A DNA stretch of 64,000 nt, taken from contig JAQOOI010000017.1 of the NCBI GenBank assembly GCA_028554645.1, positions 1,277,000-1,340,999 on the forward strand. The letters run 5' to 3'. Of the stretch, positions 32,701 to 48,751 are shown one piece after another; the stretch's first letter is position 1; every line of letters begins with the position of its first letter. Position numbers and translations under genes: made by a program. The DNA comes from Omphalotus guepiniiformis (Eukaryota > Basidiomycota > Agaricomycetes > Agaricales > Omphalotaceae). The notes under the pieces are model-generated. The model searched no databases. It was given only the letters and a program-made list of their open reading frames with translations, and was not told the DNA's origin.

Positions 32701-35700
32701 CCCCTGCTACGCCAGCGGCGTTCCCGTTTCGCCCAACCTGATCTGGAGGCAGGTGCAGCAAGGACCGGTATCTCTCCGCTGCTGGCATGGCTTGCGAGCT
32801 AGGACCTGGACCGTTCCTGCCAGCCTCCGGTCTAGCCCTTACGCTGGAAAATCGTTTGCAGGATGTGCTCTGACTCAAAAGAGGCGTCAATGCACCTATA
32901 AAGGTAAGTTAACTGCTCAACACTACCACCTTGTCTAACTGACCCGCTTCCCATTGTTAGCGACCCGAGTTATTACTCAAGTAACTTCACACAGAATCTA
33001 ACTTCTTACAAAGAAGATAAGAAGACGAAGCAAGAGAGATAGAATTGAGAAGAGAGAATAGCTAAGTACAGGTTTAACTCGAGGAGATTAAACTAGATCG
33101 AAGCTAAAGAAATATTCTAAAAAGAAGTGTTCTTATATACGTAAATAATACCCTAAACCCTGGGTTGTAACCCTTGACTAATTAATGTGTGTCTACCATG
33201 ATTTATCCATGAGTTACGATCGCCTCAGGATATACGTATTGTGATCTCGATCGCCTTGTGTTCTGTGTGTGTCTAAGATCATCATGCTGTCTACATGCAT
33301 AATTAATATAACCCTAGATCTAAGTAATACGATACTATCTACTGATAATAAAAGTGTCTACATGTACAAACAGTTGATAAGATAAGATGAAAAGAAAAAG
33401 AATACATTGTTCATAACATTACCCCCTCCTTAGGCACGATGTCCCCATCGTCCTAACTTCACTGCTAAGGCCTCAGTTGGCATTTTCTTTTGATCTACTA
33501 CTTCGGTATAGGTGTCGTGTTTAGGCATTGGTCGAAATAATGATGTCGGAAATAAGGAAATGGGTATTTCGAGTTTACGAAGTCGGGGTTTATCGGGGAA
33601 TTTCTTGTGGAAATCCTCAATTGCCTCTTTCGCATTTGTTAGATTCGCTAACGGCTCCCATGTCTGCTCGTGTCGCGAATATCCTTTCCAGTGCACTTTG
33701 TATCCAAATTTTCCTCCCCTGTATTTTCCTGAGTCTACGATCTTTTCTACTTCAAACTCCGGTTCTTTTCCTTCTATCACAGGCGGGGGTCGATCGTTCT
33801 TAGGTTGTTCCGGAAATTGCGGTTCATGATACGGAGTAAGCAGTACTTCATTAAACACGGGATGGATCCGTTTCCAGGTCTTTGGCATCTTAAGGCGATA
33901 GGATGTGGCGCCTACTTTTTCTACGACTTCGAATGGACCAAATCTTTTATCATCCAGTTTTTTCATTGGACGATCAGAAGTTAGATTTGTTGCTTCAAGC
34001 CAAACTTTGTCTTTCGGCTTGTATTCTATTGAAGCTGTCCGCTTCTTGTCGTAATGTCGTGCCATGTCCGCTTTTGCCTTCGTCAATGCCGATCCTACTT
34101 CTTCTCTGATCTTCTTCATTGAGTCCGCAAATTCCTGTGCTGTTGGGTTTGATGACGTCTTAACCGGCGCTGTCCCTTTATACGGATGTCTTCCCATATC
34201 CGCAAAGAATGGAGACACTTTTGTAGCCGAGTGTACTCTATCATTCAATACGAATTCCGCTGTTGGCAGCCACTCGTGCCAGTCATTCTGATGCTGATTA
34301 ATGAAAATCCTGAGATAGTGTTCTATCTCTTGGTTTATTCGTTCAGTTTGACCGTTACTCTGTGGGTGGTACGCCGTTGTGAAGCTACCCTGAATTCCCA
34401 ATAGTCGGTAAAGTTCCTTCATGAATTTAGAGTGATATTGTGGACCTCTATCATGAATGATTTTTCGTGGTAATCCGTGTATTGGGAAGATCCTATCTCT
34501 ATAGATCCGGGCCATTCCTTCCGACGTTAATGACATATGCGTGGGAATTAAGCGTGCCCGCTTTGTGAAATGATCCACGGTTACGCTTATTGCATTAAAT
34601 CCGCCAGCTTCCGGTAGTTCGCCAATTAAGTCCGTTCCGATTGTCTGCCATGGTCCGTCTGGAATCTCATTCGGTACCAGAGTTCCAGTTGGTTTGGTTC
34701 GATGACTTTTAGTAGCCTGACATTTTTCACAACCCTTGACGTACTTCCGTACATCTTGAGTGATTCCTGGCCACCAATAGTTCCTTGTTACCAACTCCAT
34801 GGTTTTAAATTGTCCCGGATGTCCCGCAAGAACCGAGTCATGATGGATGCCAATGATCTTTCCTCGTAACCTATTGTCAATAGGTACGTAGATTCGATCT
34901 TGCCATGTGACTATTCCTTCTGATGACTCGACCCAACCCTGATCTTTTCCTTCTAAAGCCTTATTGACTAGATTATCCCGTACTTTTGACTTCTTTTTGA
35001 TAAGATCTAAGATCTCATCTTCGGGCATTTCCAGTTTGTTGATCGAAAAAAGTTCCGGCTTCAGAAGTACTACGTTCGCATTGTCATTTTCCCCCGTCTC
35101 ATGATTGGCCATCCTGGACAATGCATCAGGCTTCCCCATTGACTTTCCAGGTTTATGGATCAAGGTAAAATCGTATTCTGATAATTCCGTTATCCATCGG
35201 GCTTGTCGGCGGTTCAACTTCTGGGGCTTCTTGAAATACTGCAGATTTTGATGATCTGTGTAAATCTCGAAGGATTCTGCTGCTCCCATTAGGTATTGTC
35301 GCCAATCTGCAAGGGAATCCATGATAGCCATCATTTCCTTATCGTAGATCTCATAATTACGTTCCGTTTCATTAAGAGATCTCGACCTAAAGGCGATTGG
35401 CCACCATTTACCGTCTATTTTTTGTGATAGCACGGCTCCATTTGCATAATCCGATGAATCCGCTTCTACACGGAATTGTCCCTGATTCCTGGGTATGGTC
35501 AAAACTACTTCCTCGGCAATTCTACTCTTGAGTTCTTCGAATGCCTGCAGTTGTAGCTCTGTCCATTCCCATTTCGTGTTCCCGGTAAGTGAAGACAATG
35601 GTTTGGCTATTTGACTAAACCCTCGAATGAATCGTCGGTAAAAGTTGCAGAAACCCAAGAAAGATTGTACTTCTTTCTTGTTTCCCGGCACTTTCCAATC

Positions 35701-38700
35701 TTTTACCGCCTTAACTTTCTTCGGGTCCATGCGTACTTGTCCGTTTCCCACAAAAACTCCCAGATACTCAACGACATCTGTTTCGAATTCACATTTCTCG
35801 GGTCTCAGATATAGTTTATGTTCTCGTAATATATCTAATACCCTTTTTACAATTGATCGATGTTCTTCGATTGTATCCGTGAATACTAAAATGTCGTCTA
35901 AGTATACCATGACATGACCTTCGTTAATCAAGTCTCTCAATATGTGATTCATGAAAGCTTGAAAGGTCGCGGGAGAATTTGTGAGTCCAAAGAACATAAC
36001 CGTTGGCTCAAAGAGTCCCCGATTAGTTCTAAAGGCCGCCTTCCATTCATCACCGTCCTTGATCCGGATATTGTTATATCCCCATCGGACATCCATTTTA
36101 GAAAAAACCTTGGAATCTTTTAGTTTATCGATGAGTTCCTGAATGAGCGGCAACGGATATTTGTTCTTTATCGTTGCTTCATTCAGTTTCCGATAATCCT
36201 GGACTGGTCGAAGTTTCCCGTCCTTCTTTTTAACGAAGAAGAATGGTGACGCCATAGGTGACTTCGACGTTCTGATTCGTCCAGATTTCAGGTTTTCCTT
36301 GATGAACTCATCCAATACTATTTGTTCCGCAGGGTTTAATGGATATACTTTGCAATTAACCGGTGTGAAGTCCGGCTTTAATTCGATCGCATGGTCCCAG
36401 GGTCTACGTTCCGGTAGATTTTGGAAATCGGCTTCGTCAAAGACATCTTTGTACTCATTGACATACTTGTCTGCCTTTGACTCTGTCTTTTTTCCTTTTC
36501 CAAAAGTCATACTCCGGAGATATCCGTCCCAGTTCAGGTAAAACAACCTGTCACCTTCTTCGAGTTCTTGGATCTTAGCCTCAGATTCGGGTTTTAGGTA
36601 AAACGGAATATAGCCGCACTTCTTTGGACACCGGTCAAAGTTCAAGATTGAGTCATTCCAATCTATGTTTGGATTATGACGTCTTAACCAGTCTAGTCCT
36701 AAGAAAATGTCCGTTTTTCCTAAATTGGTAACAGCAAGTTCAATGCGTTCCGCATGATCTCCTATTGCCAATCTGACTTCCACGAATCCTTCGATTGAAC
36801 CGTCTTCGTTTAAGGTACCATCTGCATTATATACCGGCATCCTGATTGGTAGTTTCTTGACAGTTAAGCCGTGCTTCTCTACGAATTCTTTGTTTACGCA
36901 AGAACCCGTGGCTCCACTATCAAGTAATGCCGACGTCTCAATTTGTTTGCCACTTTCTATGTCTTCGATTGTGACCGACAATTTGAGATCTCGTCCCTTA
37001 GTACCTTTCACGAAGCGTAAAGACTTTTTGAGCGTCTTTACGGCTGATACGGCTTCGCTAATATCCAATGACCTGATTTGGGCAACCGTTGCTTCCGATG
37101 CTTCCCTGGCCCGACAGGTTGGCATCCACGTTCTCAAGATTCCCACCGCTCGTTCTGACTCATCCTCTCTTACTCTCTGCGCTATCCATTCTGGTGAATT
37201 CGGCGGATATCTCTCTCTCACAGGTTTTGAATCGGTCTTTGTAGATGCTGATGCAAATTTATTCTCAGGGTGCGTAAATACAAAATGAAATTTGCTATCT
37301 ATGTGATCTACACTAGATTGTTCCGATTCTGACTCAGAAGGACCTGTAATCACTTCTGAGTCTTGACAAAACCCGTGTCCGACTTCAACCAGTTTAGGAA
37401 CCAGCTCGGTGGCTGTTCCTCCTTCTTCTCTTCCTCTGTCACATTTATCTGCCGCACTCTCTGTTCCTTCTTCAATGGGCAATCTCGGGACATGTGTCCC
37501 TTGACTCCGCAATTGAAACATAACCCGGTCTTTCGGGCTACATCCAGATCCATGGGTTTACCTATGCCCCCAAAGGTTGTTCCTGTGGCGTCTTTACGGT
37601 CGCCACCACGTGCCGCGTTCTGCGGGCTTGTTTCTCTTGGCACAAAGGCCGATCGATTCTGTCCGAGATGCTTTCGCATCTCTTGGCGCCTGCGCCATAA
37701 GTGATCAATTTTGATCACTTTGTCTTTCCATGTTGCATAATCCACCGGCAACGTATCTTGTGAATAGATTGCATCAATGATCTTGTCACTGATGCCCTTC
37801 TCGATAATCCTGACTACATAGGGATCATCCTTCTTGTACTCGGCCTCGGTCAACAGTATTTCCAATTGCTGGAAATACTCTTCAGCCGTTCCAGTGCCCT
37901 GTCTGAGCACTTCGATCTTCTCTTGGGCTGCTCGCTGCAAACCCGAATCCAAGAACGCGGTGTTCAAATCTTGTTTGAACTCAGCCCACGTCTTTTTCCA
38001 TTTCTCTTCTTCTTCGTTGTAATGGGTCTCGTAATAATTTTGAACCCATCCGTCTGTGTTCTTGCCATTCATGTAAGAAATAGCAACATCTATTCTCTCG
38101 TCATCAGAGTTGATGTTGTTTTTCTTATCACGAATGAACATGAACAACCTTCTTCGCCATATCTTGAATTCACCTTTAGCTCCGGTGAAATTCTCAGGCT
38201 TGTTCAAAAGGGATCTTCCTTTTTGTGATTCGTCGGACATTCTGATCGGTGATGGAGGTCGGGTGGAATATGGGGATGATGTAAGGGATCTGTATGGAGG
38301 TGTGGTAGGTGATGCGGGATTCGAATTGAAAAGGTCGTCAAGGTCGTTTGAAAACCAAGACGTGGTGATTTGTTCAAAGTCGTACCGTCAGTAACCTCAC
38401 GAAGAGATTTCGGGTACTTGTTTGAATAGGAATGATGATATTTGGTTCTAAAACCACACTCTTCTTGATAGTTCAACTGGGCCCTCCTTTCTAGGATTGG
38501 AGCGACGTCCCCAGCACAAAGACCCGTCTCCGAAGATCAGGAATCGATGTCTTATGTCTGCCAGTACACAGTCGGACTCAACGTTACTGTTTTGTACTAT
38601 AGGCGACGTGAACTGGACTGAGTGTAGTTTTCTAACCGAACAGGAACTCGGTATCAAAGGCAAATGCCCAAGGAAAAAGGTTTTTAGCGTATGAAGGTCG

Positions 38701-40106
38701 GGATTCACTTACAAGTCGTAAAACGACGTGCAAGGGCAAGCTTGATGAAAATAGTATGTGAAGTCGGGTGAGTTTGTTTGAAGCTTCGATCTTATGTTAG
38801 CGACCCGAGTTATTACTCAAGTAACTTCACACAGAATCTAACTTCTTACAAAGAAGATAAGAAGACGAAGCAAGAGAGATAGAATTGAGAAGAGAGAATA
38901 GCTAAGTACAGGTTTAACTCGAGGAGATTAAACTAGATCGAAGCTAAAGAAATATTCTAAAAAGAAGTGTTCTTATATACGTAAATAATACCCTAAACCC
39001 TGGGTTGTAACCCTTGACTAATTAATGTGTGTCTACCATGATTTATCCATGAGTTACGATCGCCTCAGGATATACGTATTGTGATCTCGATCGCCTTGTG
39101 TTCTGTGTGTGTCTAAGATCATCATGCTGTCTACATGCATAATTAATATAACCCTAGATCTAAGTAATACGATACTATCTACTGATAATAAAAGTGTCTA
39201 CATGTACAAACAGTTGATAAGATAAGATGAAAAGAAAAAGAATACATTGTTCATAACACCCATAGTATGTTTCAACGACTATTATCCGCCGCCCAACTTC
39301 TTGCCACCCAACGTCACGCTGCCTGAGCGCACACCTCCGCTTCCATTGCCTACCTGCCCCGACTATACTCATTGGGATGACAGCCTTCCTCCTCTCCCTC
39401 CCCAGGCCCAGCTTAGCGACAAAAAATACAAGAGTAAGGGCCTTCATACTACTGTTTTTCCCTCACTCACTGCTTGCAGAACTCGTCAAATTCTTCGCTG
39501 ATTGCCCGGGTGTATCAGTCAACCGCTTCGGAGAGATTTCGTTCATTCCCTCTGGTACGATTCTACCAGGATGCTTGGCACAGTACTCACTTTGTTAGCA
39601 GGAGACGACAACACGGCTGGTAGCACCACAAGTAAGCCTGAGGTTGCGTTACCCCCTGATGTTCGCAAGGGATCCTCCGGCGAGCTCCACTATGACCCCA
39701 CGGGGCGTTTCTATTACTTCGGTAAGCTCCAATAATAATTACAGTAAATTTGCTTGAGCTTGATACATCTACCTACTACAGATGACGATGAAGGTGACGA
39801 GGTCAAACCTTTGAAGAAAGAATCGACCGGTCGGTGCTACTATTTATTTTTCCTTGGGCCTTCAGTTAACATTTGGATGACCAGTCGGAAATACAGCTAT
39901 GAACCCCATCGACTTGACTAAGGATGACCGCCACTCTTTCTCGACTGCTTTCTCTCCCAACGGTAAGCCCTCATAGCTTCATTTGCAGCCCTACCACTCA
40001 CCTGTTACTATTAGAGATTATACCTGGCCCTCTCCGTCTGTGTCGTACCTGCGACCTATTGGACACCGGTGTGAACCACGTTTGCGACCTTACCATAGAG
40101 GTGTAG
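32700..40106 (+). CDS. Hypothetical gene interrupted by a retrotransposon in an intron
   Basis: An upstream exon ends at 32903 with QKRRQCTYK and a GTAAGT donor. The downstream exon begins at 39266 after CCCATAG and continues in frame as V-CFNDYYPPPNFLPPNV, a Pro-rich segment with PTCPDYTHWDD. Later exons read ELVKFFADCPGVSVNRFG, EVALPPDVRKGSSGELHYD and a Cys-containing end CRTCDLLDTGVNHVC, with stop at 40106. Without the element the intron would be 53 nt, the usual size here. The protein is not recognised; the spaced cysteines in the upstream exon are suggestive of a small metal-binding region. The true start was not found and may lie upstream of 32700. Confidence 0.5.
32950..32954. repeat. 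Target-site duplication CCCAT, left
   Basis: CCCAT directly precedes the left LTR and is repeated directly after the right LTR at 39259-39263, as expected for a 5-bp integrase cut. Confidence 0.9.
32955..33418 (-). repeat. LTR, left copy (3' LTR of the minus-strand element)
   Basis: 464 bp starting TGTTAG and ending ATAACA, with TGTTA/TAACA terminal inverted repeats. I compared it line by line with 38795-39258 and saw no difference. Confidence 0.95.
33421..33429 (-). other. Polypurine tract
   Basis: Read on the minus strand, GGAGGGGGT lies 2 nt before the 3' LTR and just after the pol stop codon (33430-33432). This is the expected place for plus-strand DNA priming. Confidence 0.75.
33430..37521 (-). 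CDS. pol: Retrotransposon Pol polyprotein (PR-RT-RH-IN-chromodomain)
   Basis: A single open frame of 1,363 codons counting from the first ATG, although translation is expected by -1 frameshift from gag. Domains in order: aspartic protease (LLDSGATGSCVN, about residue 205), reverse transcriptase (FFVKKKDGKLRPVQDYRKLN and catalytic VMVYLDDILVF, about 540), RNase H (RVEADSSDYANGAVLSQ), integrase HHCC zinc finger and core (IGTDLIGELP, HDRGPQYHSKF and HPQSNGQTERINQE supply D, D, E) and a C-terminal chromodomain (EVEKIVDSGKYRGGKFGYKV, then WKGYSRHEQTWEP). The chromodomain usually targets integration through histone marks. No stop or frameshift is seen inside the frame. Confidence 0.95.
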   Translation of the reverse strand: MFQLRSQGTHVPRLPIEEGTESAADKCDRGREEGGTATELVPKLVEVGHGFCQDSEVITGPSESESEQSSVDHIDSKFHFVFTHPENKFASASTKTDSKPVRERYPPNSPEWIAQRVREDESERAVGILRTWMPTCRAREASEATVAQIRSLDISEAVSAVKTLKKSLRFVKGTKGRDLKLSVTIEDIESGKQIETSALLDSGATGSCVNKEFVEKHGLTVKKLPIRMPVYNADGTLNEDGSIEGFVEVRLAIGDHAERIELAVTNLGKTDIFLGLDWLRRHNPNIDWNDSILNFDRCPKKCGYIPFYLKPESEAKIQELEEGDRLFYLNWDGYLRSMTFGKGKKTESKADKYVNEYKDVFDEADFQNLPERRPWDHAIELKPDFTPVNCKVYPLNPAEQIVLDEFIKENLKSGRIRTSKSPMASPFFFVKKKDGKLRPVQDYRKLNEATIKNKYPLPLIQELIDKLKDSKVFSKMDVRWGYNNIRIKDGDEWKAAFRTNRGLFEPTVMFFGLTNSPATFQAFMNHILRDLINEGHVMVYLDDILVFTDTIEEHRSIVKRVLDILREHKLYLRPEKCEFETDVVEYLGVFVGNGQVRMDPKKVKAVKDWKVPGNKKEVQSFLGFCNFYRRFIRGFSQIAKPLSSLTGNTKWEWTELQLQAFEELKSRIAEEVVLTIPRNQGQFRVEADSSDYANGAVLSQKIDGKWWPIAFRSRSLNETERNYEIYDKEMMAIMDSLADWRQYLMGAAESFEIYTDHQNLQYFKKPQKLNRRQARWITELSEYDFTLIHKPGKSMGKPDALSRMANHETGENDNANVVLLKPELFSINKLEMPEDEILDLIKKKSKVRDNLVNKALEGKDQGWVESSEGIVTWQDRIYVPIDNRLRGKIIGIHHDSVLAGHPGQFKTMELVTRNYWWPGITQDVRKYVKGCEKCQATKSHRTKPTGTLVPNEIPDGPWQTIGTDLIGELPEAGGFNAISVTVDHFTKRARLIPTHMSLTSEGMARIYRDRIFPIHGLPRKIIHDRGPQYHSKFMKELYRLLGIQGSFTTAYHPQSNGQTERINQEIEHYLRIFINQHQNDWHEWLPTAEFVLNDRVHSATKVSPFFADMGRHPYKGTAPVKTSSNPTAQEFADSMKKIREEVGSALTKAKADMARHYDKKRTASIEYKPKDKVWLEATNLTSDRPMKKLDDKRFGPFEVVEKVGATSYRLKMPKTWKRIHPVFNEVLLTPYHEPQFPEQPKNDRPPPVIEGKEPEFEVEKIVDSGKYRGGKFGYKVHWKGYSRHEQTWEPLANLTNAKEAIEDFHKKFPDKPRLRKLEIPISLFPTSLFRPMPKHDTYTEVVDQKKMPTEALAVKLGRWGHRA
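37350..38240 (-). CDS. gag: Retrotransposon Gag with CCHC zinc knuckle
   Basis: The ATG at 38238-38240 opens a 296-residue frame. The capsid-like region (NTDGWVQNYYETHYNEEE, AEEYFQQLEILLTEAEYKKD) is followed by a basic region and the nucleocapsid zinc knuckle CFNCGVKGHMSRDC. The frame overlaps pol, which is in the -1 frame. The gag stop lies five codons after a slippery heptamer. Confidence 0.93.
   Translation of the reverse strand: MSDESQKGRSLLNKPENFTGAKGEFKIWRRRLFMFIRDKKNNINSDDERIDVAISYMNGKNTDGWVQNYYETHYNEEEEKWKKTWAEFKQDLNTAFLDSGLQRAAQEKIEVLRQGTGTAEEYFQQLEILLTEAEYKKDDPYVVRIIEKGISDKIIDAIYSQDTLPVDYATWKDKVIKIDHLWRRRQEMRKHLGQNRSAFVPRETSPQNAARGGDRKDATGTTFGGIGKPMDLDVARKTGLCFNCGVKGHMSRDCPLKKEQRVRQINVTEEEKKEEQPPSWFLNWLKSDTGFVKTQK
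37368..37374 (-). promoter_or_regulatory. Candidate -1 ribosomal frameshift heptamer GGGTTTT
   Basis: On the minus strand the gag frame reads ACG GGT TTT GTC, so the sequence G-GGT-TTT has the X-XXY-YYZ form with gag-frame phasing. A -1 slip continues as TGT CAA GAC TCA, which is exactly the pol frame (CQDSEV). Confidence 0.8.
38782..38792 (-). other. Primer-binding site, self-priming type
   Basis: Two bases inside the 5' LTR edge, the sense sequence AGATCGAAGCT is an 11-nt perfect complement of AGCTTCGATCT at the predicted 5' end of the element's own RNA (38945-38935). No tRNA-like TGG follows the LTR. Confidence 0.75.
38795..39258 (-). repeat. LTR, right copy (5' LTR of the minus-strand element)
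   Basis: Identical to 32955-33418. It contains the element promoter: a TATATAAG box at 38979-38972 and a predicted start about 30 nt downstream at 38945. Confidence 0.95.
38972..38979 (-). promoter_or_regulatory. LTR TATA box
   Basis: TATATAAG on the minus strand, 27-34 nt upstream of the base where the 11-nt self-complementary segment begins. The spacing is that expected between TATA box and start site. Confidence 0.65.
39259..39263. repeat. Target-site duplication CCCAT, right
   Basis: Matches 32950-32954 and is followed by AG, which together with it forms the 3' splice site of the host intron. Confidence 0.9.
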
Positions 40107-45863: not shown

Positions 45864-48751
45864 TCAGCCTATTATTTCCAGCTGGTTAACCTCGTTATTT
45901 AGCAGAGCATATAAGAAGCTTACAGTTGAGGATTGGTTTGTGCGAAGGGCTTTCAGCTGCTCCTGTTCCATTTCGGAATCAGAGTCAACGGTGGTGTCCT
46001 CAATTGCAGGGTCTTCCGACAGTTCGTCGTCTTCAGGTCCTCCTAGAGTAGTGGGATCCGTACCAATCGCTTGAACAAGCGTCCAGTCCACATGTGGTTT
46101 GTTGGAAAGAGAGGCGCCGCCAGTAGAGTCCTCAGCTGTTGGATGAACGGGACGACTCTCCTGGGGACAGGATGGATAGATAAAAGGGTGGTTTTCACCT
46201 CTCGAGACAGCTCCATCTATATACACCCTCATCGCCCGTAGGTGTTTACAAGCCCCTCCGTTTCTTTGAAAATCTTGGCACTGACAAGATGCTGCGCCAT
46301 TTCGGTTCATATAGAGACGGTAAATGGTATTGTTGGCTTTTGATGAAATACAGGTGGCTTGGTAGCTATCGGCATCGGGCCTGGCAGAGGAAACTACAAT
46401 GCGCTGTAGGTCGACGATTTGTTTTGCATGGAAGTCTCGAGATTCATCTACTGTCCACCAGCACATGGGAGGGCTATTCAGTGCTTCCCGTCGCTCTCGA
46501 AGCGTTTGTTGGTGTGCCTCAACCAGATTGTTTCCTCCGGCGTGATTGCGAAAGCGGTCAACCAGCCACTCCAAATAATTCTTGCGGATCTGGTACTGAT
46601 GGTAGATACTGGGCATGACTTGAGTAGTTAAGATCAAGATAAGGAAGTCGAATCGAAGTCGATGACCGGAGTGTAACCAGGAAGCCAAATGCTTGCGCTT
46701 CAGAACGGCATTAAACGATTCCAAGTGGTTTGTAGTGGGAATGACTTCCTCGACTGGAATGCCAATACGAGCCGCTGCTCCTATGCGCCCCAATTCAGAC
46801 CAACTTCTCCACATAACCGGTGACATCCAGTTCGCATTGAGATAGGTGAGGTGCGAGATACCTGCTTGAGCAGCTAACTTCGCTGCAGGGCCTATATTTG
46901 AAATGTTCAGGAAATAGGAATTGAGTTGCTGTACAAGTTCAACAGCGGCTGAATGCTCCGTTGTCGATATTAACCTGAGGATGAAGGTGTAAGAAAGCTG
47001 CTTAAAATGACGAAAGAAGTATCACCCGTACTGAGTTTCAAGCCCTTGAAGAAGTCCACGGGTATGATCTTTCCAGAAATTGGCCTGGGATGCGAGCTTT
47101 CCTGATCCTAAAGCCTTCTTACGATGGTTTGTCCAGCATTGGCGTAGATGAAACTTGCATAAAAGAAGCAAGATATCACTCCAGACTGCTAGCAAAGCCC
47201 CTCGTTCCTTCGTGTCCGTATCAGTGATAGCAGAGTAAGGGGTAAAGGGCTCGGCTGCATTTACTGTCCCGGGGCGATGTTGGCCTAAATGTCGCTTCCA
47301 GGACGATAGCAGTTTGGTCAGTATTTCAGTATTGTATCCAGCGTGAGTAGCCCGGGTTCCTGTTGGGGCAGAGAACAAGAAAAGAGCCACCGGAAGCCCT
47401 TTTTTCTCCTCATCAATTGTCAATGCTATAAAGAGTAAAAGACGGGTGCTGCAGACTCCGAATGTACCGTCAAGAACCAGCTGTGAATGATGAGCATACT
47501 TCCAAGCCATTGCATCCATCTCGGGTGTAGAGATGCAGATCTCGAAGCGATCTTCAGCCTGAGCGCGCGCTGAATAGTGAAATACAGCGCGATAGACCTG
47601 CGGATTGAAACTGGGTGACCCAGGTCTCAACCAATCATCTACGTTGTACTGAGGTGGTACCCGGACATTGACGCCTAGTTTTTGACTGAACTTCCGGTAT
47701 AGAGTGCTGTTATCAGTTGGGAGAATGTTGTACCGTACATTTGCAGTCTTCAGGTCTATCTCATGCATGCCTTTGTATTTGTGTTCCGCTATCATACACC
47801 GATTTTGATCTTGAATAGCATGTAGACTATGAGAAGGGTCTTAACTCCAAGGTGATGGTAAAAAAGGCGAGGGAAATAACAAACCTAGCTCCGTGTTCTA
47901 GCTGTTCAATCGCAACAACATACACATGATCGTGCAAGGGAACCCGGGGAATACGTTCCATTATCGCTTCTTCGCATTGCTTGTTGTGCTCAAAGACACC
48001 CGAGATACGGCTGATGCGACCACTAGTTTGCTCTTCCCAGACTTCAGCGTGCGCAAGACACTCTGTGAATGGATAGGGAACATGACGTTCCCACTGCATC
48101 TTGGTCAAGCCCTGCTGTGGATATACTTTCCTCTGATTTTCAAGACGTTGCTGTCGAGAATGTGGGTCATAGCCGCAGCAACTAGACACAATGCAGTAAG
48201 TATGGTATTCAGCTCAAGATAGTGCCCTTACCATTGATATAAAGTACGCCTTTGTTGTTCCTGATTGTTATCCTCACCCAGTGCTTGCCAGGAGGTAGAC
48301 CATTGCTTGACCCATCGACTTTCTAGTGCTTCTCGAGAAGGCCTGTCAAGGCTCAATTCCGCCAACTTTAAATGAGCTTCCCTCTGCTCATCAACACCGT
48401 ACTTATGCTTAACGTGCTTCATAGACCCGTATATCTGCTGAATAGTTTCCCGTTGGGCCTGATTAAGATGCAGCTGACGGATAATAGTCTGAAAGATGGT
48501 GTTAGCAAGTCTATTATCCCCTGTGCCTTGAACCGATGGCTACGCAAAATACAAACTTTCTCTCCTGTCTTCGAGGGACAAAGAGGCGGAAGTGATTCCG
48601 CTGCTTCCCGTAAGCTGGACACCGATATTCCCAGTGCATGAGGGGGGTTTCCGTACGGAGGGCGGAGAGGCGGCAAAGATTCAACCGTGTCCCGCAAGCT
48701 GAAAGCTGATATATTGGGCACAGATGGTCGACTTTCCTCCTGTGTACTCAT
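45864..48751 (-). CDS. MULE-type transposase with SWIM zinc finger, multi-exon, apparently intact
   Basis: The ATG at 48749-48751 begins MSTQEESRPSVPNISAF. Exons continue with TIIRQLHLNQAQRETIQQIY, a Cys/His region (CSSCCGYD, RHVPYPFTECLAH), and then the catalytic core: HHSQLVLDGTFGVCSTRLL (first Asp), SDILLLLCKFHLRQCW (CxxH region and second Asp) and TTNHLESFNAVLKRKHL (Glu in the TNxxES box). A C-terminal SWIM finger reads CQCQDFQRNGGACKH. The end is an acidic tail. This order is that of Mutator-like element transposases. The first exon contains a two-fold SLRxxxESLPPL repeat. All exons are open. No terminal inverted repeats were identified, so it may be an autonomous element with divergent ends or a stranded or domesticated gene. 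Confidence 0.78.

Follow-up and report, generated by a model that had tools for sequence, protein, structure and literature searches.

Self-priming of reverse transcription has been demonstrated for the long terminal repeat (LTR) retrotransposon Tf1 of Schizosaccharomyces pombe, and elsewhere it has mostly been proposed from sequence. The 2001 study of Cryptococcus retrotransposons by Goodwin and Poulter is said to treat both self-priming and the folded 'pretzel' RNA. According to the available portions of one source, the self-primer of Tf1, a chromodomain element, is the 5' end of its messenger RNA, which pairs with a primer-binding site (PBS) after the 5' LTR, while two further duplexes join sequence adjacent to the PBS to the LTR downstream of the primer; Tf1 and several relatives are described there as able to form this three-duplex 'pretzel' (PMC10085805). 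In the text available from the literature, Tf1/sushi elements are described as self-priming in fungi, vertebrates and non-seed plants (PMC6317226, PMC10085805, PMC4600332), and self-priming was proposed from complementarity between the PBS and the 5' LTR for Tj1 of S. japonicus and for Tosmo and Tcry of fission yeasts (PMC4600332, PMC10085805). Here we analyse a stretch of 64,000 nucleotides (nt) from Omphalotus guepiniiformis (contig JAQOOI010000017.1, positions 1,277,000 to 1,340,999; hereafter the window, in whose numbering all positions are given), which carries on its minus strand (39258–32955) a chromodomain Ty3/gypsy element that looks intact, with gag and pol open. An earlier sequence-only reading had proposed that this element primes reverse transcription in the manner of Tf1. 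Our analysis supports that proposal: the element is very probably a young, seemingly intact fungal retrotransposon of Tf1/sushi type, the first 11 nt of whose RNA would fold onto the PBS and prime.

A primer-binding site complementary to the LTR

Two nucleotides past the end of the 5' LTR, the element carries AGATCGAAGCT, the perfect complement of AGCTTCGATCT within the LTR. The sequence-only reading had given both the letters and the coordinates of this 11-nt complement correctly, and its statement that the LTR segment starts 27–34 nt after a TATA box was confirmed: counted to the start of AGCTTCGATCT, the distance is 34 nt from the first T of TATATAAG and 27 nt from its last G. Judging from this spacing, which would put the TATA box at −34, the RNA probably starts at 38945. 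The complementarity had also been said to stop exactly after 11 nt; this is true of the window element, in which the next base on each side is unpaired, but it is not conserved, as pairing in the sister family D (L092) extends by one base at either end, to 13 nt. The absence of TGG and of a tRNA-like PBS was likewise borne out, with a match of at most 1 nt to a CCA end among 40 transfer RNA (tRNA) sequences. The earlier count of three independent features went a little far, since the lack of TGG and the self-complement are observations on the same 11 nt.

The 11-mer occurs three times in the window (5' LTR, PBS and 3' LTR), compared with a mean of 0.07 in shuffles, and an 11-nt complement at an offset of 0–3 past the LTR was reached by 2 of 3000 dinucleotide-shuffled LTRs. 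When the window RNA was folded from its proposed start to 60 nt beyond the PBS, all 11 primer:PBS pairs (helix P1) were predicted to form, with a mean probability of 0.97.

Primer and binding site across copies and families

For the window family, 42 matches are listed in the host genome (42.5 Mb in 80 contigs), and 18 of them span LTR and leader at 87–100% identity. Two further copies are more diverged, at 72% (query 11–750) and 75% (query 20–496), and most of the remaining matches stop at or near the LTR end. We examined 21 of the 42 places, belonging to the window family and near relatives, and both segments were readable in 20: pairing of primer and PBS is perfect in 17, includes one G-U pair in two and one C-A mismatch in one. 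Copy L074 pairs perfectly through a double-sided change, from C-G to U-A. The 11-mer changes in L071–L074 are C-to-T or G-to-A at CpG, as would arise by cytosine deamination in older copies, and for this reason they carry little weight alone.

Beyond this family, 14 further 5' regions were chosen from 150 scored RVT_1 places (one from another scan), together with extensions and other copies. LTR ends were set by matching second LTRs in A, G2, C, K and G1 (L039/L041), by homology in D, B, G4 and G6, and in the I family by visual comparison of L103 and L094, whose LTRs are equal and have AACAT on the outer side of each; with the window element (W), this gave 11 rows for comparison. Identity to the window in the reverse transcriptase (RT) is 94% for D, 49–56% for A, C, G1 and G2, and 42–43% for I and K.

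Four unrelated primer/PBS groups were found in this one genome, namely W/D, A, G and B/C. Where the sequence-only reading had looked to relatives for a PBS that changes without its LTR, each of the four groups instead matches its own LTR, over 11 nt in W, 13 nt in D, 10 nt in A, in G1 and in G2/G4/G6, and 12 nt in B/C; exact PBS–LTR matches thus reach 10–13 nt within groups, as against at most 8 nt between groups. Inside the G group, a single base on each side separates G1 from G2, which constitutes a compensatory change, and L097 carries the same pair as G2. The 3' arm begins 1–2 nt past the LTR end in the self-complementary families, and a TATA-like box starts 31–34 nt before the 5' arm in six of them (W, D, A, G1, G2 and C). 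Shuffling the LTRs of five other families yielded a comparable complement in 0–7 of 3000 cases, and in all nine self-complementary rows no 15-nt leader window starting at least 20 nt past the LTR end attained the PBS value, a comparison that for G4 and G6 covers only 39 and 43 windows. The match, its position relative to the TATA box and the LTR end, and the covariation are established by the sequences themselves.

The K and I families have PBS–LTR matches of only 5 nt. Neither K (L095; 341-bp LTR) nor I (L103; about 11 kb, with AACAT on both sides) has a TGG or a self-complementary PBS and, judged on this, these families do not self-prime in this way. Inverted pairs of 10 nt in L090 and L099 were rejected as chance occurrences because they lie inside open reading frames (ORFs), and the L100 candidate was dropped because its query region is a dispersed repeat, probably a DNA transposon, with inverted copies close to its end. 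No LTR was located in the stretches examined for L096, L098, L111 and L112; the families of the first two were read instead from L104 and L103, and the last two were excluded from the comparison.

The proposed priming RNA and rival explanations

From these observations we infer the start site, the fold in vivo, the cleavage and the priming. The RNA would start at 38945 and fold its first 11 nt back on the PBS, 2 nt past the 5' LTR, within a structure of three duplexes: P1 between primer and PBS, P2 between early and late parts of the LTR, and P3 between LTR and leader, crossing P1. By analogy with Tf1, the RNase H of the element would cleave the RNA after nt 11 and so provide the 3' end that primes minus-strand DNA; the boundary is placed at nt 11 because base 12 is unpaired with the base preceding the PBS. 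The first two bases added to the primer would copy the TA spacer, leaving two extra bases at the end of the complementary DNA, and extra bases at such ends are commonly trimmed by integrases. Since, in the general scheme of LTR elements, the plus strand copies the primer when remaking the PBS, the PBS and the RNA start should stay matched under self-priming. This copying could account for the exact match within each group even in the absence of selection; covariation in P2 and P3, by contrast, would need selection.

In the window RNA, P2 joins nt 23–30 to nt 135–142 and P3 joins nt 113–122 to nt 182–191. Both flank the primer duplex, and in the window family and sister D both have double-sided changes; the predicted layout of the helices there matches the three-duplex RNA of Tf1. 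Covariation was assessed in an alignment of 18 distinct related sequences, from one of which the structure was drawn, so that the resulting numbers are not probabilities. For P1, P2 and P3 together, 95.0% of cells are paired, compared with 90.9 ± 0.6 in shuffles and 25.9–45.8% when the arms are slid by 1–3 columns; 20 cells carry double-sided changes, compared with 5.8 ± 2.1 (0 of 500 shuffles as high), and the covariation score is 0.176, compared with 0.098 ± 0.010 (again 0 of 500). P2 changes from UA to AU in five sequences, while P3 changes from GC to AU in five and from GC to UA in three, as well as from AU to UA and from AU to GC in three D-type sequences. The P3 duplex energy gave p = 0.002 in W and 0.05 in D, with 0 of 500 shuffles in B and C, and exact-match shuffles gave 40 of 1000 for P2 of D and 16 of 1000 for P3 of C. 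Taken singly, P2 and P3 are only moderately better than shuffles, and support from the other groups is uneven. In B and C (L101, L102), a long helix between LTR and leader beside the PBS (−30 to −32 kcal/mol) covers the gag start codon, an arrangement that could couple priming and translation.

Several results weigh against this model. P1 contains a C-A mismatch in copy L071, and 3 nt of the TATA box are missing from copy L076. Two of the five covariation measures are no higher than in shuffles: 5 pairs show a double change, a number equalled or surpassed in 113 of 500 shuffles, and 13 pair types occur (375 of 500). Three D-type rows fail, as aligned, at 4 of 8 column pairs in P2 and 4 of 10 in P3; inspected by eye, their P2 is shifted by one column and then pairs perfectly as CTCGAGTT/AACTCGAG, and their P3 requires a bulge of one base. 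Exact-match shuffles reach the window values for P2 in 185 and for P3 in 74 of 1000 cases, and since such single-sequence tests support these helices weakly, P2 and P3 rest mainly on covariation. The P3 energy was not significant in A, G1, G2, G4 and G6, and by P3 energy and exact-match shuffles the three-duplex arrangement was not found in A, G1 and G2. Pseudoknot-free minimum-free-energy folds were predicted without P1 in A, B, C and G4 (0 of 10, 12, 12 and 10 pairs, respectively). Finally, the tRNA set is incomplete, comprising 40 sequences (35 distinct) of 63 scored places after a first look at 1950 candidates; some of the 40 come from small, probably mitochondrial contigs, and ARAGORN labelled 20 of them, although these labels were not relied on.

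Ordinary tRNA priming, in which a tRNA would bind the PBS through its 3' end or through a cut internal portion and the complement in the LTR would be incidental, can draw on two matches. In the window PBS, 8 nt (GCTTCGAT) match the interior of a tRNA to which ARAGORN gave the label Arg. In G2, G4 and G6 (L094, L104 and L105), not in the window, the PBS is TGATTCGACC, whose 10 nt are complementary to the 3' end of L146 when CCA is left off; judged by eye, L146 is a tRNA-Val(AAC). In this G-group PBS, GTT stands where TGG would, and 9 of 12 positions match once CCA is counted; about 0.0014 such tRNA-end matches are expected by chance, as calculated by hand for uniform bases over seven groups or families, 6 offsets and 35 tRNAs. 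However, none of the 11 rows has a TGG, and complementarity to CCA ends, counted from the last base of the tRNA, is at most 2 nt, so that a tRNA would need trimming before its 3' end could be extended; in the window, the match to CCA-less ends is at most 5 nt. Nor would tRNA priming account for the agreement of four PBS groups, each with its own LTR, at a common place past the TATA box, and we consider it highly improbable. The G-group RNA start, GTCGAATCAA, resembles the 3' end of the same tRNA-Val. The G group may have a tRNA origin or role, which leaves the window family unaffected. We regard it as unlikely, though worth stating, that self-priming arises by tRNA capture, in which a copy of a former tRNA-Val PBS would have entered the LTR and become the new RNA start, so that a tRNA-primed element turned into a self-primed one.

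An 11-nt inverted match of no function is a concern in so far as 10-nt pairs do arise in coding sequence, as in L090 and L099. The shuffled LTRs of the window family and of the five others rarely produce one, however, and with its position relative to the LTR end and the TATA box agreeing in four groups, chance is practically excluded by the group comparison. An RNA stem with another role, such as dimerisation, packaging or translation control, with priming by something else, would fit the covariation, which demonstrates pairing and not priming, and P3 of B/C covers the gag start codon. Against such a stem, the 3' arm lies exactly at the place required of a PBS, 1–2 nt past the LTR, where no other PBS candidate was seen; we judge this explanation very improbable. 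Tf1-like self-priming accounts for the four PBS groups that match their own LTRs 31–34 nt past a TATA-like box, the double change between G1 and G2, and the perfect pairing in 17 of 20 copies.

Element structure, relatives and significance

The insertion looks recent, because the two LTRs are identical and CCCAT stands on both outer flanks (Table 1). At the C terminus of the integrase, a chromodomain was detected at pol residues 1256–1307 (PF00385, E = 2e-14), and PF24626 was matched with E = 2.1e-15; the profile matches of rve and zf-H2C2 in pol fall below curated cut-offs. The gag and pol ORFs share 172 nt (37350–37521, minus strand) in different frames, which suggests frameshifting or re-initiation and not a single polyprotein. 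Elsewhere in the window, ORFs on the minus strand at 45864–47795 match a SWIM zinc finger and, below cut-off, a MULE transposase, and are probably pieces of a MULE-type DNA transposon.

Table 1 Features of the window element (window coordinates)
Feature	Position	Strand	Remarks
5' LTR	38795..39258	-	464 bp, TG...CA; 0/464 differences from 3' LTR
3' LTR	32955..33418	-	464 bp
Target-site duplication CCCAT, 5' LTR side	39259..39263
Target-site duplication CCCAT, 3' LTR side	32950..32954
TATA box TATATAAG	38972..38979	-	sole TATAWA within LTR
Proposed self-primer AGCTTCGATCT, RNA nt 1-11	38935..38945	-	complement of PBS; 34 nt past TATA start
Spacer TA between LTR end and PBS	38793..38794	-	2 nt
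Primer-binding site AGATCGAAGCT, RNA nt 154-164	38782..38792	-
P2 5' arm CTCGAGTT, RNA nt 23-30	38916..38923	-	one pair changed on both sides in 5/18 rows
P2 3' arm AACTCGGG	38804..38811	-	short distance before PBS
P3 5' arm TGTGTGAAGT, in LTR, RNA nt 113-122	38824..38833	-	three double-sided pair changes; duplex energy p = 0.002
P3 3' arm ACTTCACATA, in leader	38755..38764	-	crosses P1 and P2 (pseudoknot)
gag ORF	37350..38240	-	296 aa, CCHC zinc knuckle
pol ORF	33430..37521	-	1363 aa: protease, RT, RNase H, integrase, SH3_Tf2-1, chromodomain
Presumed polypurine tract AAGGAGGGGG	33422..33431	-	3 nt (TAA) before 3' LTR; spotted by eye

The window element differs from Tf1 in its sequences and in its host group; its gag and pol lie in two overlapping ORFs, compared with the one ORF of Tf1. 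Among 120 listed RT relatives, the closest named proteins of high identity (64–68%, query residues 390–800) come from mushroom-forming fungi, including Lyophyllum, Armillaria, Mycena and Trametes; protein P0005 reaches 78%, and, ranked by E-value, the leading matches include amphibian and fish proteins at 40–47%. In an RT tree of 25 rows without Tf1, from which the placement of the misread B row (five stops, no match to the window RT) was disregarded, the window element groups with its sister D and seven other rows, six of them basidiomycete (99/100), with the deep branches unsettled. No related element was found in viral_contigs (1 of 8 scans; near records may be omitted).

Other described chromoviruses share part of this picture. 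Elements of the basidiomycete clades MarY1, Laccy, Tcn1 and Tcn2, named in PMC2864245, also have a chromodomain. No self-primer was found in SM-Tcn1 (PMC2864245). The Skipper elements of dictyostelids are also chromoviruses, most of them without a TGG PBS, but according to the accessible part of their description they have a polypyrimidine stretch and no complement in the LTR (PMC5006619). Among the titles and the beginnings of abstracts in the open-access literature, we found no report of several covarying primer/PBS groups in a basidiomycete.

The window element is thus, as judged by comparison of sequences, a well-supported further example of a known self-priming mechanism, that of Tf1/sushi elements. 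Several unrelated primer/PBS groups in one fungal genome, together with double-sided changes, provide comparative support that is independent of S. pombe. The groups also offer a ready set in which to study how primer and binding site stay matched while changing, and how elements move from tRNA priming to self-priming. If tRNA capture were true, a plus strand that copies the primer would keep the RNA start and the PBS in step, explaining the class-wise exact matches in the window family as well. Annotation that seeks only a tRNA-type PBS would miss such elements.

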